Positions 7,011 through 34,997 of a DNA stretch of 34,997 nt are shown one piece after another. Numbering within the stretch: position 1 is the first letter of the stretch; every line of letters begins with the position of its first letter. The position numbers were made by a program, and so were the translations under genes. A model generated the notes under the pieces. It was not told the DNA's origin, searched no databases, and worked only from the letters and a program-made list of their open reading frames with translations. Source of the stretch: a bacterium BMS3Abin14 (GTDB taxonomy: Bacteria > BMS3Abin14); the NCBI GenBank assembly GCA_002897695.1, contig BDTG01000016.1:1-34997 (forward strand), in the 5' to 3' direction.

Positions 7011-8706
7011 AAAAACATCCGGAACCCTGTTGACCGGCTTCATTTTGAGCGCAATTTTCTTCGTGCTTCTCCCACTGGGGGCCGCCAGGGGGGCGTCCTA
7101 CTGTGAGCGTCTGTACGATTCAGCGAAAAGGGACTACTACTCGCTGTTGAAGAGTGATCGCAAGCAGAAGTTCCACGACAGTTGGGAGAAGGTGATAGAA
7201 AAGTTCAGCACGATCTACGAGAAGTATCCAACCTGTTCCCGTTCACCGGATGCTCTTTTTAATGTCGGGGTTCTTTACCGGAAGCTCTATCACAGGTCCT
7301 GGATCGGGGCTGATCTGGACCGGGCGCTGGGAACATTTTTGAAGCTTCAAAGCAGGTTCCCGAGCAACCGGCTGGCCGACGATGCTCTGCTCAATGCGGC
7401 CCAGGTACAGGAGGAAAAAGGGCGCAAAGGTGATGCCTATCGTACCTACGCCAAGCTTGTAAAGGCCTATCCTGAAGGGGACATGGCCTCACGGGCGAAA
7501 AAAAGGCTTAATCAGCTTGCCTCTTTTGCCCCAAAACCTCCTGTTTCTAAAACCAGAACCAGGGCCAAAGCCAAAACACGCCCTGGGAGGACTGTCAACA
7601 TTACAGATGTCAAGCACTGGTCCAATCCCGAATACACCAGGGTAGTTGTCTATGCCACAGACAAGCTGAATTACGAGGAGCATCGTCTAAAAGGCGATCC
7701 GCGCACCGGAAAACCACCCCGGCTTTATATCGACCTGAACAATGCCCGTATTCCTTCCGCATTGTCCAGCCCCATTTCCATCAAGGATGGGCTTCTTCTA
7801 AGGGCGAGATTAGGCCAGTACAATCCTGATACGGTTCGTCTGGTACTTGATATTGACAGTATGGGGGACGATCGCGTCTTTACAATGGAAAACCCATCAA
7901 GGCTTGTTGTAGACGTTTTTGGCCGGGATGCCGGGTCGTCGTCTTCAAAGGCAGGCAGGCCGGGCAAGGGGGCTGGAGCGCCCTTGCCCCTGGCCAAGCA
8001 GCTTGGCCTGAGAGTGAAGACCATTGTGCTCGACCCTGGTCACGGGGGAAAGGATCCAGGAGCCGTGGGACGGGGAGGGCTGAAGGAAAAGGATGTGACT
8101 CTGGCAATTGCAAAACTGCTTAAACCCATGCTTGAGGCCAAGGGATTCCGAGTCCTGATGACGCGCGACAAAGATGTTTATGTCAGCCTGGATGAAAGGA
8201 CGGCTTTTGCCAACAGCCATCTGGCCGATCTTTTCGTTTCGATTCACACCAATGCCAGTCGAAACCGGCGGGCTCGCGGGGTGGAGACCTACTTCCTGGG
8301 CGTGGCTATGGACAGGGACTCCAGTGAGACAGCGCTTCTGGAAAATGCGATAACCCAGCAGACGTTGGCTGATCTGGAGAAGATTCTTCTGGATCTGACC
8401 CGAACCTCCAACCTTAAACAATCGAGCATGCTCGCTGAGTCTGTCCAGGAGAATTTATTCCATGGGCTCTCCAAAAGAAACAGACTTGTGAAAGATCATG
8501 GAGTAAAACAGGCCTCTTTCTACGTCCTGATTGGAGCCCAGATGCCCGCTATTCTGGTTGAAACCTCTTTTATCAGCCATCCAACGGAAGAAAGGCTCTT
8601 GAGAGATCCCAGTTACCTGAAGCTGGTCAGTAGTTCCATTCTTCGGGGCATTCTCGATTATGTGGATGGACTGGCAACGGCCACAGACGGAAACAGTCAC
8701 ACATGA
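7003..8706 (+). CDS. amiC: N-acetylmuramoyl-L-alanine amidase (AMIN + Amidase_3)
   Basis: A 567-aa exported enzyme that cleaves the amide bond between MurNAc and L-Ala in peptidoglycan, usually during cell separation. Domain order: signal peptide (about 1-30), TPR-like region (about 45-170, AYRTYAKLVKAYPEGDMA), a basic linker, AMIN domain (about 195-310), and a C-terminal zinc amidase. The zinc ligands are visible as H347 (DPGHGG), E362 (LKEKD) and H415 (SIHTN); a late Glu is in ILVETSFISH. The N-terminal TPR extension makes it longer than E. coli AmiC and may replace other envelope contacts. It overlaps mutS by 8 bases and glnD by 4 bases. The symbol is by similarity; it could equally be named amiA/amiB. 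Confidence 0.93.
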   Translation: MSRKTSGTLLTGFILSAIFFVLLPLGAARGASYCERLYDSAKRDYYSLLKSDRKQKFHDSWEKVIEKFSTIYEKYPTCSRSPDALFNVGVLYRKLYHRSWIGADLDRALGTFLKLQSRFPSNRLADDALLNAAQVQEEKGRKGDAYRTYAKLVKAYPEGDMASRAKKRLNQLASFAPKPPVSKTRTRAKAKTRPGRTVNITDVKHWSNPEYTRVVVYATDKLNYEEHRLKGDPRTGKPPRLYIDLNNARIPSALSSPISIKDGLLLRARLGQYNPDTVRLVLDIDSMGDDRVFTMENPSRLVVDVFGRDAGSSSSKAGRPGKGAGAPLPLAKQLGLRVKTIVLDPGHGGKDPGAVGRGGLKEKDVTLAIAKLLKPMLEAKGFRVLMTRDKDVYVSLDERTAFANSHLADLFVSIHTNASRNRRARGVETYFLGVAMDRDSSETALLENAITQQTLADLEKILLDLTRTSNLKQSSMLAESVQENLFHGLSKRNRLVKDHGVKQASFYVLIGAQMPAILVETSFISHPTEERLLRDPSYLKLVSSSILRGILDYVDGLATATDGNSHT

Positions 8707-30129: not shown

Positions 30130-30207
<78 letters not shown>

Positions 30208-30278: not shown

Positions 30279-30449
30279 CTAACGTTTTTTAGGGGCAATC
30301 TCGCTGTCCGGTATAAGGTACCCCCGGCCCCCAGGTGAGACAATCGCCTTGATCTTTCCCTCGTGTATCCAGCCCCGGACGGTTGTTGGGGTGACACGGA
30401 ACAACTCGGCTACATCCTTGACTGTCCAGAATCGTTCCCGCCTGACCAT
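30279..30449 (-). CDS. Excisionase-type HTH (helix-turn-helix) protein, 56 aa
   Basis: A short reading frame, ATG at 30449 to TAG at 30279. The protein has an HTH_17/Xis-like core (FWTVKDVAELFRVTPTTVRGWIHEGKI, then a basic wing with GGRGYLIPDSEI). Such proteins direct excision (Xis/AlpA role) or regulate phage-satellite genes. It is the gene closest to tRNA-Pro, the expected position for a directionality factor. The upstream AGGT is too close to be a normal ribosome-binding site, so the start is less certain. Alternative role: element repressor/activator. Confidence 0.75.
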   Translation of the reverse strand: MVRRERFWTVKDVAELFRVTPTTVRGWIHEGKIKAIVSPGGRGYLIPDSEIAPKKR

Positions 30450-30523: not shown

Positions 30524-30557
30524 AAAAAACCCCGCCCGGGCCAACCCTGGGCGGGGC
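30524..30557 (-). terminator. Strong Rho-independent terminator after the capsid gene
   Basis: On the minus strand CCCCGCCCAGGG-TTGG-CCCGGGCGGGG is followed by TTTTTT (plus-strand A run 30524-30529). The 11-bp stem has one mismatch. It lies 50 bases past the capsid stop, before the HTH gene, so the HTH gene probably has its own promoter or low readthrough. Confidence 0.88.
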
Positions 30558-30606: not shown

Positions 30607-32364
30607 TTAAACGTTTTTGCTGAACGCGGCCGCGTGGCCAACGCCGACGTCGTAGTCCAGGAACACCCGGACCACGAGTCCGCCGGCGGCCGCTTTGGTG
30701 GACTCGTCAGGCTTCACATCCATACCACCCCATAAGCCGATAAGGGTTTCCCGGAAGTTGCCGAACAAAATCCCATTTGTCGGCATATTCGTGGTGGCCC
30801 TCGCCGGATAGCCGTTGATCTGATTGTCCTGCATTAGAAATCCGGCGCCGGCATCCCCGGTGACTTTCACGGTGGCCTTCAAATATCCTTGAATCGCGGG
30901 GGTGATGAAATATGCCAGGCCGCCCCGGAGGGCTTTTGCCGTTAGCACGTCAGTTTCAAACTCTATGAGTTCGGCCCAAGTGGGGTTGCCGGCAGCGGCG
31001 ATGGTCACCGTTCCAAGCCCCGTTTGATTCAAAAGCCCCAAAGGTTGTGCAGCCGCTCCGGAGCCATCGAGGATTTTCGCTTCCATCTCGACCGCGGCGC
31101 CGCGGACCAGAAGATTACGAACCAGGCCCTCAGCGGCGGGAGTGGATTGTTTCAGGAACCGGCGGCTCATGGGCACGGACCCACCCAGGGTTTTGGGCGA
31201 GAGCGTGACCTCGGCGGTGGCGGGGGTGCTGTCAGTAACATCAACATCTTCACCGACATGGTAGAACGTCGCATCACCCATGCTGGGAATCTCGACATTG
31301 CCCACAAGACCCGGGAGAATCTGCGCGCCGAACTCGAAAATATAGAGTTCTTGCCGCAAAGCGTCCAGGAAGTTTGCTCCAAGGTGATCGGTGCCGACCA
31401 TTTCCCCACCCGTGGTGGCTGTACCGGCGGTGAGGGTTCTCTGACCTCCGAAGGGGATGTCCAGCGGTATCAGGAATCCCTTGGGGGCCTTATTTTGGCG
31501 CTCGGCTATGGTTCTGCTGCACTCAAGCTCCAGCCCCGCGTCGCGCCAATCGCCGGAAAGCTGGGCCTTGATAGCTCTCAGGATGCTATACTGCCGCGCG
31601 TCGCCCCTCGACAGGTCCAGATGGGCCGGCGAGGTTTCGATGGGGGGCTTGCTGGAGATCCTGGAAATAGCCATCTGCCTAAAGGTTTCCACATCGAGCC
31701 CTTCAAGGATCGCCCGGTCGGCCAGTTCCTGGACACCAGGGGCATGAGGGCTGAGGGATTTTCCGATAGCGGCAATTTCTTCGATTCTGTGATCCGATTC
31801 CGGCCGGTCTCCTTGCCGGATGGTTCGAACTGAAATTTGGTCTTGCTTGTCCATGATTATTTTCTCCTGTGATGACCGGCCGACACCGACAGAGGCATCC
31901 GCCGGGACGGCTGTTAAAGAAATCTCGTAGGGGGTCCATCGGGTGGCAAGAAATGCCTCCTTGCCGTCGATGGGGTCAGTCTGGCGCAGCGCCTCGATGC
32001 TGTAGCCAACGGAGACGGTCTTGCGGATCCCGTCGGCAACGTCCTGAAAAACTTCCTGGGCCCGGGTGGATCTCCCGAAGCGAATTTGCGCGCGGGCCTT
32101 TCCGTCCAGGTCAACCTGCGCTGCTTCGACCACTCCCACCACATCGGCGGGGTTGTGATCCATGATGAGATTTCCTGCCTGCCGGAGGCGTTGCAAATTG
32201 ACGGCCTCCGAACGGTGGTCCAGGATCTCGAAACCCCAGAAACGTTCCACTGGAGTATCTGAGCTGAAACTGAGGGTGGCGGTGCGCTGCTCGATGTTGA
32301 CTCCGCCCTCCAGTAGGGTAAAGGCGCGCCGGAATACCTGGCCCGCTATGGTTTTCATGTCCAT
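30607..32364 (-). CDS. Prohead protease-HK97 major capsid protein fusion
   Basis: A 585-aa single frame. Residues 1-165 match the HK97/S78 prohead protease: H70 (LIMDHNPADVVGVV) and S118 (RKTVSVGYSIEAL) are likely catalytic, followed by WTPYEISLTAVPADASVGVGR. After a linker, residues about 190-585 are an HK97-fold capsid protein with a delta-like helical part (195-260) and the coat domain (ANFLDALRQELYIFEFGAQIL...PMSRRFLKQ...ILDGSGAAAQPLGLLN). GAGGAG sits before the ATG (32364). The fusion implies self-processing during assembly. An internal ATG at 31854 with its own AGGAG would make the capsid part alone. No separate scaffold or portal gene is visible. Confidence 0.93.
   Translation of the reverse strand: MDMKTIAGQVFRRAFTLLEGGVNIEQRTATLSFSSDTPVERFWGFEILDHRSEAVNLQRLRQAGNLIMDHNPADVVGVVEAAQVDLDGKARAQIRFGRSTRAQEVFQDVADGIRKTVSVGYSIEALRQTDPIDGKEAFLATRWTPYEISLTAVPADASVGVGRSSQEKIIMDKQDQISVRTIRQGDRPESDHRIEEIAAIGKSLSPHAPGVQELADRAILEGLDVETFRQMAISRISSKPPIETSPAHLDLSRGDARQYSILRAIKAQLSGDWRDAGLELECSRTIAERQNKAPKGFLIPLDIPFGGQRTLTAGTATTGGEMVGTDHLGANFLDALRQELYIFEFGAQILPGLVGNVEIPSMGDATFYHVGEDVDVTDSTPATAEVTLSPKTLGGSVPMSRRFLKQSTPAAEGLVRNLLVRGAAVEMEAKILDGSGAAAQPLGLLNQTGLGTVTIAAAGNPTWAELIEFETDVLTAKALRGGLAYFITPAIQGYLKATVKVTGDAGAGFLMQDNQINGYPARATTNMPTNGILFGNFRETLIGLWGGMDVKPDESTKAAAGGLVVRVFLDYDVGVGHAAAFSKNV
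31852..31868 (-). promoter_or_regulatory. Internal ribosome-binding site and in-frame ATG inside the protease-capsid gene
   Basis: Minus strand reads AGGAGAAAATAATCATG. AGGAG (plus 31864-31868) is 9 bases before ATG (31852-31854), residue 171 of the fusion, exactly at the protease/capsid boundary. It is as good as the primary start, so a separate 415-aa capsid product is plausible. Confidence 0.6.
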
Positions 32365-32393
32365 GTTGTCTCCTCAATCGTCCGGGGAAATAC

Positions 32394-32444
32394 AAAAAAC
32401 CCCGCGACGGTGTCTCGGCATCAACCGAGAATCGTGTCACGGGG
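32394..32444 (-). terminator. Terminator between leader RNA and capsid gene
   Basis: On the minus strand CCCCGTGAC pairs with GTCGCGGGG (one G-U; as the plus-strand RNA this would be a C-A mismatch), with an inner CTCGG/CCGAG hairpin, followed by TTTTTT. It ends 30 bases before the capsid start codon. The wobble pattern and U tract support the minus-strand orientation. Confidence 0.82.
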
Positions 32445-32498
32445 CCTTGCGGGTCCCTGTCCTTTTGGGGTGACGCCCCATCAGGCAGACTGTTGTAT

Positions 32499-32600
32499 GT
32501 AGCTCTGCGCCAGTGCCCCATTCCGGGGGCCGCTGCGTCCGTCGGGTGGCGTTCCCGAGTTCCGCCGGCGCTGTGAGCTTGAAACCCCCGGGGGAGCTAC
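32499..32600 (-). ncRNA. Candidate structured RNA upstream of the capsid gene
   Basis: The 278-base gap between the small Cys protein and the capsid gene lacks a convincing coding frame but folds strongly. Plus-strand coordinates of complementary pairs: 32501-32505 with 32575-32579 (AGCTC/GAGCT), 32507-32511 with 32567-32571 (GCGCC/GGCGC); enclosed hairpins 32515-32519/32526-32530 and 32542-32546/32554-32558; alternative closure 32499-32505 with 32594-32600. CCCCCGGGGG follows at 32585-32594. The transcript would end in the terminator at 32394. It may be a capsid-leader attenuator or a separate small RNA. Orientation is inferred from the terminator. I did not match it to a known RNA family. 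Confidence 0.5.
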
Positions 32601-32643
32601 CTCCGAGAGTATGAAGTTATAGTTACGCAAAACTTACGGTCTG

Positions 32644-32889
32644 TCAATGCTCGATTTTCACGGACTCAAGGGTCTTGTCCAGAGCCTGCTTCTCCTGCTC
32701 AATGGTTTCCTTAATTAAAGCGCTCATCTGCTTCCTGGAAACGGGGAAGAAAACCAACCATCCAATCGCGGCCGTCGTAGCAGCCGCCTGGCGGTGTTCA
32801 CAATAAATGAGACGGTTTCCCCGAGGGGATAAAAGGTTGCTCTCCTTGTTGTCGAAACATTCTTGGCAGATGCCTGGGGGTGTTTTCAT
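32644..32889 (-). CDS. Small Cys-containing protein of unknown function
   Basis: An 81-aa protein. Residues 8-30 contain CQEC...YCEHR, a possible zinc-binding knuckle; a hydrophobic segment follows (AATTAAIGWLVFFPV, about 35-50) and then a Lys/Glu-rich helix. The ATG overlaps the Nu1-like gene's stop (ATGA), so it is translated with it. The position between small terminase and capsid would suit a packaging or head accessory protein, but no homology is recognised. Confidence 0.7.
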   Translation of the reverse strand: MKTPPGICQECFDNKESNLLSPRGNRLIYCEHRQAAATTAAIGWLVFFPVSRKQMSALIKETIEQEKQALDKTLESVKIEH

Positions 32890-33362
32890 TTTTCCTGCTC
32901 CTCCATTTCCCGCGCGGCCTTGCCGGCGGAATCCGCGATGGCCACAATCCCCTTGTCGAACTCCTTCCGCACCCGGGCGGCCGTCTTGACATCGAGGTAC
33001 CGTGAGAGGCGATCCTGGGCGGTGTAAATCATCTCCTTAACAATCCTGCAGAACTCCGCGACGCTTTTGACGACAACGGCGGTTTTAACGAGCTCGCCGG
33101 CGCGCACCCTGTTCTCGACCTCAACCTTCTCCGCTTGGGCCCGCGCCAGCCGGGCCCGCTCAGTGTTGAGATCCAACTCCCTTTCCGTTGTCTTGGACTT
33201 CTCCCTATCCAGGAGCCACGCGAGGATCTGGCTGATGTTATAAACATTCGGCTGTCCGCGCTTGGCCGCGCTTTCATAGGGCATCCCCTCCGCCTGGTAT
33301 CGGGTTAGGGTTCGTTCGGCAATGCCGGTTATTTGAGAAAGTCGCTTTTTGCTTACGTCCAT
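32886..33362 (-). CDS. Terminase small subunit-like DNA packaging protein (Nu1-type)
   Basis: A 158-aa protein. The N-terminal MDVSKKRLSQITGIAERTLTRYQAEGMPY is the lambda gpNu1-type winged-HTH start, followed by LAWLLDREKSK and the helical ERELDLNTERARLARAQAEKVEVENRVRAGELV typical of Nu1-like small terminases. These proteins bind cos/pac DNA and recruit the large terminase for packaging. GAGG lies upstream of the ATG at 33362. No large terminase is visible nearby, so the element may recruit the helper phage's large subunit (inference). Confidence 0.85.
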   Translation of the reverse strand: MDVSKKRLSQITGIAERTLTRYQAEGMPYESAAKRGQPNVYNISQILAWLLDREKSKTTERELDLNTERARLARAQAEKVEVENRVRAGELVKTAVVVKSVAEFCRIVKEMIYTAQDRLSRYLDVKTAARVRKEFDKGIVAIADSAGKAAREMEEQEK

Positions 33363-33891: not shown

Positions 33892-34075
33892 CGTTTGCCG
33901 TTTGCCAATCTATAGAATATAGATTTGGCAAACGCTAAACGTTTTACCGTCTGCCACCGTCTGCCAAGAAGGGGGTGGCAAACCGGCAAACGAAACAATA
34001 TTAAGTAGTTAGGGCTCATTGCTTAACCTCGTTTGCCAGGGTGTAATGCTTGGAATTGAAGGGGGGTCGTTTGCC
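33892..34075. repeat. Iteron-like cluster (CGTTTGCC), candidate replication origin or operator
   Basis: Nine copies of an 8-mer CGTYTGCC or its inverse: 33892, 33899, 33948, 33958, 34030 and 34068 in plus orientation; 33927, 33977 and 33985 inverted. The copies at 33899 and 33927 bound a near-perfect palindrome (33899-33934) with an AT-rich centre (CTATAGAATATAG). Two further copies (33948, 33958) are tandem 10-bp units. The cluster lies in the gap after the RepA-like ATPase gene, extending into its 3' end. This resembles iteron origins of plasmids and satellites; a regulator operator is the alternative. Confidence 0.7.
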
Positions 34076-34997
34076 GGCTGTCCAAAGCCGGTTTTCACCC
34101 TGTTTGAGAAGCCATCGGCTCTTGCTTCTGGAGACCCCCAGGGAGGCCATAATTTTCTCGACCAGGCGTCCGTGGATAGCCTCCTCGCCGAGGTCCACTA
34201 TCAGGTCCCCGACGAGTTCCAACTGGCCGGCGGACTCATCTTCCAGGAGTTCGAAACTACCGTCCTCCCAATGGTGAATGAGCTTCAGGTCTACCGGGAC
34301 CCCTCGCCTTGACTTGGTAGTATGGATCCCCAGCTTGGTCTGGCCGTCGGCCAGGTCGCCGTGCCCATTGCCGGTAGTGGTGCGCTGCATAATCAAGATG
34401 CTGTCCACCTGGTCCTCGATGGCCTGGGAACCCCTGATGCTCTCCTGGCTCCCCTTTCCGGTATGGGCGATCAAAATGATTGTGAACCCTTTCTCCCGGA
34501 GAGGTAGTAGTTTATGGATAACCCCCGACATCTCCTCGGAAGTGTTCTCCCGCAGGCCTTGAGCCGCTCGGAGGGAGTCAATAATAATGACGGACCCCTC
34601 CGGAGCACTACGTTCAACCTGGTCCCATGCGGTGCTGTCCAGCTTCGGCGGCGGGCCGTCCGCCGGATGGAATAAGAACACTCCCTCACCGAGCCCCGCA
34701 TTGCGGAACCGTGAAGCCAGGTCGCCGGCGTACATTTCGAAGTTGATCCAGAACACCGGCCGGCGCTCTGCCTGGAACCCGAGGAACTGTCCACCGCCGG
34801 CCAAGGCCTTCGCCAGCGCCATACAGAAGTATGTCTTGCTGATTCCCCGTGGACCGACCACCGCTGTTACCTGGTGTTCACCTATTAAGGGCGGAAGGAT
34901 CATCCGGGTTGGGTAGTCCAGGCGGGAGAACTGTTCCGCAGAGACGATACGCCTGGCCTTCGACTTTCTGTCCCCGACCCTGGCAAGCGACTCCTCG
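34016..34997 (-). CDS. RecA-fold RepA-like (AAA_25) ATPase, 5' end outside the window
   Basis: Open to the window edge; an ATG at 34903 exists but the frame stays open upstream (…SAEQFSRLDYPTRMILPPLIG), so the true start is outside. The Walker A region reads VVGPRGISKTYF; the sixth position is Ser, not the usual Gly of GxxxxGK(S/T). Walker B is SVIIIDSL, followed by a typical ILIAHTGKGSQESIRGSQAIEDQVDSIL RecA-core sequence. A C-terminal winged-helix-like part follows (GRLVEKIMASLGVSRSKSRWLLKQG). Such proteins are helicases/replication initiators in plasmids and P4-type satellites, often fused to a primase. The neighbouring iterons support a replication role. Confidence 0.85.
   Translation of the reverse strand, partial: EESLARVGDRKSKARRIVSAEQFSRLDYPTRMILPPLIGEHQVTAVVGPRGISKTYFCMALAKALAGGGQFLGFQAERRPVFWINFEMYAGDLASRFRNAGLGEGVFLFHPADGPPPKLDSTAWDQVERSAPEGSVIIIDSLRAAQGLRENTSEEMSGVIHKLLPLREKGFTIILIAHTGKGSQESIRGSQAIEDQVDSILIMQRTTTGNGHGDLADGQTKLGIHTTKSRRGVPVDLKLIHHWEDGSFELLEDESAGQLELVGDLIVDLGEEAIHGRLVEKIMASLGVSRSKSRWLLKQGENRLWTAGKRPPFNSKHYTLANEVKQ

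Follow-up and report, generated by a model that had tools for sequence, protein, structure and literature searches.

The 279-nt non-coding gap between a small gene of no curated family (orf81) and a capsid gene, within the 34,997-nt stretch of bacterial DNA analysed here (the window), is a leader closed by a strong intrinsic terminator a short way ahead of the capsid start. We consider it moderately probable that this is a promoter-proximal leader whose terminator serves as a read-through gate for the capsid of a phage satellite. Four properties were computed directly: the terminator itself, its position, its recurrence before capsid genes that have no portal gene, and the lack of a good promoter sequence in a sigma70-type scan between the terminator and the capsid ATG. 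From these we infer the gate action of the terminator.

The window corresponds to contig C16, which ends at 34997, in a genome of 2.28 Mb. A minus-strand element lies to the right of a tRNA-Pro gene (30130-30206, plus strand), its likely integration site. In the direction of transcription it carries an AAA_25 replication ATPase identified by profile match (34016-34903), small ORFs, a Nu1-type terminase small subunit (TerS; 32886-33362; PF07471, phrog_57), orf81 encoding a small CxxC...CxH protein (32644-32889), the gap, a 585-residue capsid-protease fusion that forms the major head protein (30607-32364; PF05065, E 2e-27; phrog_617, E 3e-124), an ordinary short terminator seen in the sequence (30524-30557), and a small HTH protein (30279-30449). 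The capsid, TerS, and ATPase ORFs are all intact, and the small ORFs adjoining the leader gave no family matches. Small CxxC...CxH or Cys proteins without a known family also directly precede the gap in the related loci L207, L201, and L204. The window, which holds the assembled part of the element only, contained neither a portal nor a large terminase subunit (TerL), and a whole-genome search found no GpA-type TerL. Since TerS and capsid are present in the window without portal or TerL, we rejected an ordinary prophage, contrary to the initial annotation, which had taken the locus to be phage; this element next to tRNA-Pro has the appearance of a phage satellite that carries a capsid gene. 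Its capsid is 59% identical to the prophage capsid of genome G005, a member of the same family, and in that full prophage the portal gene runs into the start of the capsid gene, leaving no gap between them.

The end of the contig at 34997 kept a second att copy out of view. The 25-nt 3' end of tRNA-Pro recurs only in another tRNA-Pro gene, and its copy on contig C7 was rejected as a candidate attR for that reason. Integrases occur in the related elements L109, L201, and L204. The window HTH gene shares 70% DNA identity over 135 nt with L007 6174-6395, where the prophage copy adjoins TerL. The satellite HTH protein thus resembles one that the G005 prophage encodes in its late operon, and so is perhaps not an excisionase.

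The gap runs from 32365 to 32643 on the minus strand, between the capsid gene start at 32364 and the end of orf81 at 32644, so that the initial annotation had located it properly and given its length one base short, as 278. It holds no convincing ORF, the only frame being a 49-residue one with a TTG start. The whole gap folded on the minus strand to -114.8 kcal/mol (z = -3.3, with 2 of 200 shuffles equally good), against z = -1.5 for the plus strand. The terminator hairpin (32396-32448, minus strand; dG about -28 to -32) consists of a lower stem CCCCGUGAC/GUCGCGGGG, an internal loop, and an upper stem CUCGG/CCGAG, and when folded alone it reached -27.7 with z = -3.9. Its U-tract (TTTTTT, 32394-32399) lies 29 nt before the capsid ATG, close to the 30 bases first estimated, and is followed by the Shine-Dalgarno sequence GAGGAG of the capsid gene (32370-32375). 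A single U-G pair in the lower stem would be A-C on the plus strand, which bears out the earlier remark that one position pairs on the minus strand only. The 190 nt upstream of the terminator gave z = -2.3, and most of the fold excess of the gap over shuffles stems from the terminator hairpin. From these two z values it follows that the terminator is far beyond chance and that the upstream part, previously described as branched, is only moderately structured. The gap had been assigned to no recognised family, and indeed Rfam (release 15) gave no match to it even at E = 5, the only matches overall being rRNA and tRNA. No DNA homologues of the window leader were found in phages or in 61 genomes, and its conservation therefore rests on analogous, not homologous, leaders.

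The top sigma70-type score in the leader region of the window belongs to a promoter-like element on the minus strand (32616-32647; p = 0.027 against shuffles), with TTGACA at 32642-32647 over the orf81 stop codon and TATAAC at 32616-32621, separated by a suboptimal spacing of 20 nt. TTGACA or TTGAAA overlaps the upstream stop codon in the same way in L153, L207, and L206. The scan scored sigma70-type sites only and left out L224, for which the upstream sequence was too short. In 8 of the 10 leaders that could be tested the best upstream site was better than shuffles (p <= 0.04), L253 having no clear upstream site, and the promoter-like sites precede the U-tract end by 113-223 nt. Where a clear site exists, in nine leaders, scores were 8.6-12.1 upstream of the terminator versus 3.5-6.2 within or after it.

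To collect relatives we used an alignment of five capsids, which recovered 80 viral and 80 genomic loci, and added further portal-less loci through the capsid protein from Nitrospirota and from the order of the Rhodocyclaceae genome. In most recovered loci the portal ends between a few bases and about 200 bases from the capsid. Among the 11 portal-less loci found by capsid protein alone, nine have a long terminator (dG -28 to -44) at 27-63 nt before the ATG; the two portal-less loci with no terminator before the capsid are L205 and L204, the latter with a stretch of N in its upstream sequence. A long hairpin with a U-tract just before the capsid gene is present in the window, in L207/L109, L206/L132, and L201 of the Nitrospirota, in L208/L137 of the Woeseiaceae, in L224 and L253, and in L209/L174 and L153 of the Rhodocyclaceae and Zoogloeaceae. 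Four further loci were found through the leader itself (L261 and L262 by a DNA pattern, L269 and L270 by an RNA model) and so are not independent evidence of the association. The leader terminators have hairpins of 51-75 nt, with dG from -28 to -53 and z from -3.3 to -7.6. The same gene set, minus TerL and portal, recurs across many genomes with an intact capsid.

When the same detector was applied to 140 control loci with a portal directly upstream, it returned two hairpins of -16.7 kcal/mol and no long ones; true phages of this capsid family are essentially without the element. Equally strong long terminators numbered 388 on both strands of 1.43 Mb of control loci, or about 1-2% per 100 nt per strand. 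In all 12 leaders scanned the U-tract starts at -27 to -63 from the capsid start, which is the sole recurring terminator position in these 12 elements; such placement is expected for the leaders selected by RNA and is not expected for the others. Strong terminators were absent from the portal-distant loci L083, L084, L133, L142, L159, and L162, several of which have tail-like genes and the look of rearranged phages, not of satellites. In the ordinary phages L256 and L258 the stop codon of the portal gene, immediately ahead of capsid, is covered by a short hairpin with a U-tract. Two capsid alignments (A3 and A4) searched against viral contigs gave mostly ordinary phages or nothing.

On the capsid tree, a quick tree with SH-aLRT support only that cannot separate gains from losses, the terminator-led state needs four changes. 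Well supported branches force three of these: they group the window with the G005 phage (100) and a Nitrospira trio with a resident prophage (97), each as sisters, and they set the beta-proteobacterial clade apart (100). Because at least three separate gains or losses are forced, the tree suggests that the terminator-led state arose convergently among satellite capsid lineages. Since the same arrangement recurs separately in unrelated elements, it is probably a switch that restricts shell production to the right moment.

The beta-proteobacterial leaders form a sequence family, common to L153, L209, L253, L261, L262, L269, and L270 and in part to L224. Conservation spans the whole leader, beyond the hairpin, and comprises a conserved 5' end, the element GGTTCAATnGCTTCGCGCTTGCC, a terminator with a variable tip, and a conserved unpaired stretch. 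A covariance model seeded with three of these leaders and run on 399 genomes gave five strong matches (the three seeds and two new ones), all directly before a portal-less capsid gene, and one weak match that is not. Once the alignment was fitted to the model, 95% of its stem cells pair, as compared to 38-55% when it is slid, and five pairs changed on both sides, a number reached in none of 500 shuffles; these counts lean towards structure because the alignment was itself fitted to structure. The double changes all lie in the terminator stem, and a putative conserved hairpin upstream has no double-sided change. A conserved ORF is excluded, because every pair of leaders differs by indels that are not multiples of three and stops are scattered through the frames of several members. 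The idea of a coding gap was accordingly rejected for this family, with Pfam and PHROG matches to its frames absent or weak (a single PHROG match at E 0.0019 over 20 residues) and no DNA match in phages. The beta leader is thus a conserved non-coding RNA with a covarying terminator stem and no Rfam entry, and neither of the two outcomes that the initial annotation had named as refuting was seen among these relatives: covariation and conservation are both present, and a conserved reading frame is not. A pattern scan for the conserved 5' end in helper phages returned eight viral contigs without this capsid or terminator, and a match in MT836603 was dismissed as a 21-base chance match inside a host-like gene.

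Under the gate that we favour, transcription would start around the orf81 end, or arrive from further upstream, and would normally stop at about 32394, yielding little capsid; capsid would be made only when RNA polymerase reads through the terminator. As the terminator separates any upstream promoter from the start codon, only read-through could then yield capsid, short of a promoter concealed within the hairpin. The opener may be a factor active in helper-phage growth, such as a Q-like antiterminator or an inhibitor of polarity or termination. An attenuator had been among the initial suggestions, and its outline has held up in that a capsid-proximal, attenuator-like leader recurs before portal-less capsids; what has not is a conserved upstream antiterminator stem, since upstream segments paired with the terminator 5' arm at chance level (p > 0.1) in 10 of 12 leaders, with 0.127 in the window, which leaves a self-contained attenuator unsupported. 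An antiterminator pairing of CGCGCTTG with CAAnGCGCG was attractive by eye and no better than shuffles. A conserved short ORF, as in a leader-peptide attenuator, was sought in the beta family and not found. With a self-contained attenuator unsupported, we prefer an external opening factor, and a helper antiterminator is our best guess. More tentatively, we put forward as a possible generalisation that unrelated satellites have convergently come to gate a borrowed capsid by a terminator that a helper antitermination factor opens, the helper transcription machinery being the trigger.

Pairing of the 3' arm with sequence past the U-tract was better than chance in L201, L206, and L207 (p <= 0.003), weak in the window (p = 0.03; CCCCG at 32383-32387, minus strand), and absent in the beta family. 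In the three former loci a copy of the terminator 5' arm directly follows the U-tract, which enables RNA made by read-through to fold a second hairpin with the 3' arm.

The rival that survives best, though we think it distinctly less probable than a gate, is an ordinary insulating terminator between an early or packaging operon and a capsid gene whose own promoter is unusual and overlaps the hairpin or is phage-activated and thus invisible to a sigma70 scan. Inter-operon terminators are common and our promoter scoring covered that one type, but in at least three lineages the 27-63 nt from U-tract start to ATG offer hardly any space for a promoter, a promoter-like site was found upstream of the terminator instead, and conservation in the beta family covers the whole leader, beyond the hairpin. 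An independent small RNA acting in trans on helper or host, its adjacency to the capsid incidental, is improbable. A promoter-like site of its own, a length of 113-223 nt, a strong terminator, and the conserved 5' end and unpaired stretch of the beta family would all suit such an RNA, but every strong match of the RNA model lies directly before a capsid gene, and the window, Nitrospira, and beta leaders agree in position and terminator and not in sequence, which fits a role in cis better than a common target in trans. A DNA site, either cos or another satellite packaging signal, would account for the dyad symmetry and for the place next to TerS that the leader has in L253 as well as in the window, yet we regard it as very unlikely: compensatory changes and the polarity of the U-tract fit RNA, the likely cos of L201 lies elsewhere, in an 89-nt stretch downstream of its capsid, and no sequence common to the L201 leader and its resident prophage was found. 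Equally implausible is a decayed prophage in which the gap is the scar of terL and portal loss and the terminator an accident; the element is seen only in part and its capsid is close to that of a real prophage, but its main ORFs are intact, its gene set recurs in many genomes, and GpA-type TerL is missing genome-wide.

We know of no answer to how capsid-carrying satellites time capsid expression to helper growth, and a terminator gate that appears separately in at least three capsid lineages would provide a concrete and testable one. The open-access literature that we searched contained no report of a terminator-gated satellite capsid gene. The nearest parallel to the predicted gate is the late leader of phage lambda, in which promoter pR', the 6S RNA leader, and terminator tR' are followed by read-through when the Q antiterminator acts. 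Both have a promoter (here by sequence only) at the head of a leader some 200 nt long, with an intrinsic terminator preceding structural or late genes; here, unlike in lambda, a single satellite capsid gene would be guarded, by a hairpin of 51-75 nt at 27-63 nt from the ATG. Among satellites, the elements resemble cf-PICIs and other capsid-encoding satellites in being chromosomal and in having an integrase (here in relatives), a replication ATPase, TerS, and a capsid of their own, with tycheposons and PICMI as contrast cases. The head and packaging set of cf-PICIs is fuller, whereas TerS and the capsid-protease are all that was seen of it in these elements, TerL and portal being absent from view. 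Satellites of the present kind may be recognisable by a sequence signature, a portal-less capsid gene with a long hairpin-terminator no more than about 65 nt away. The P4 satellite likewise uses transcription termination as a regulatory point, through termination-based immunity and the termination inhibitor Psu, but in P4 (PMC11718236) control bears on the replication operon and on Rho-dependent termination, and here an intrinsic terminator precedes the capsid gene.

One Nitrospirota genome appears to hold both partners. The 89-nt non-coding stretch lies downstream of the capsid in the L201 satellite (7561-7649) and, at 93% identity, upstream of TerS in the resident prophage L202 (12844-12932); it is likely a common cos or packaging site, making L201 and L202 a likely satellite-helper pair. 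The same prophage also carries a piece (L202 9789-10014) 98% identical to the small HTH gene region of the satellite (L201 2269-2540). It is antisense inside the late operon, has an internal deletion of about 46 nt, and is possibly a satellite-derived insertion.
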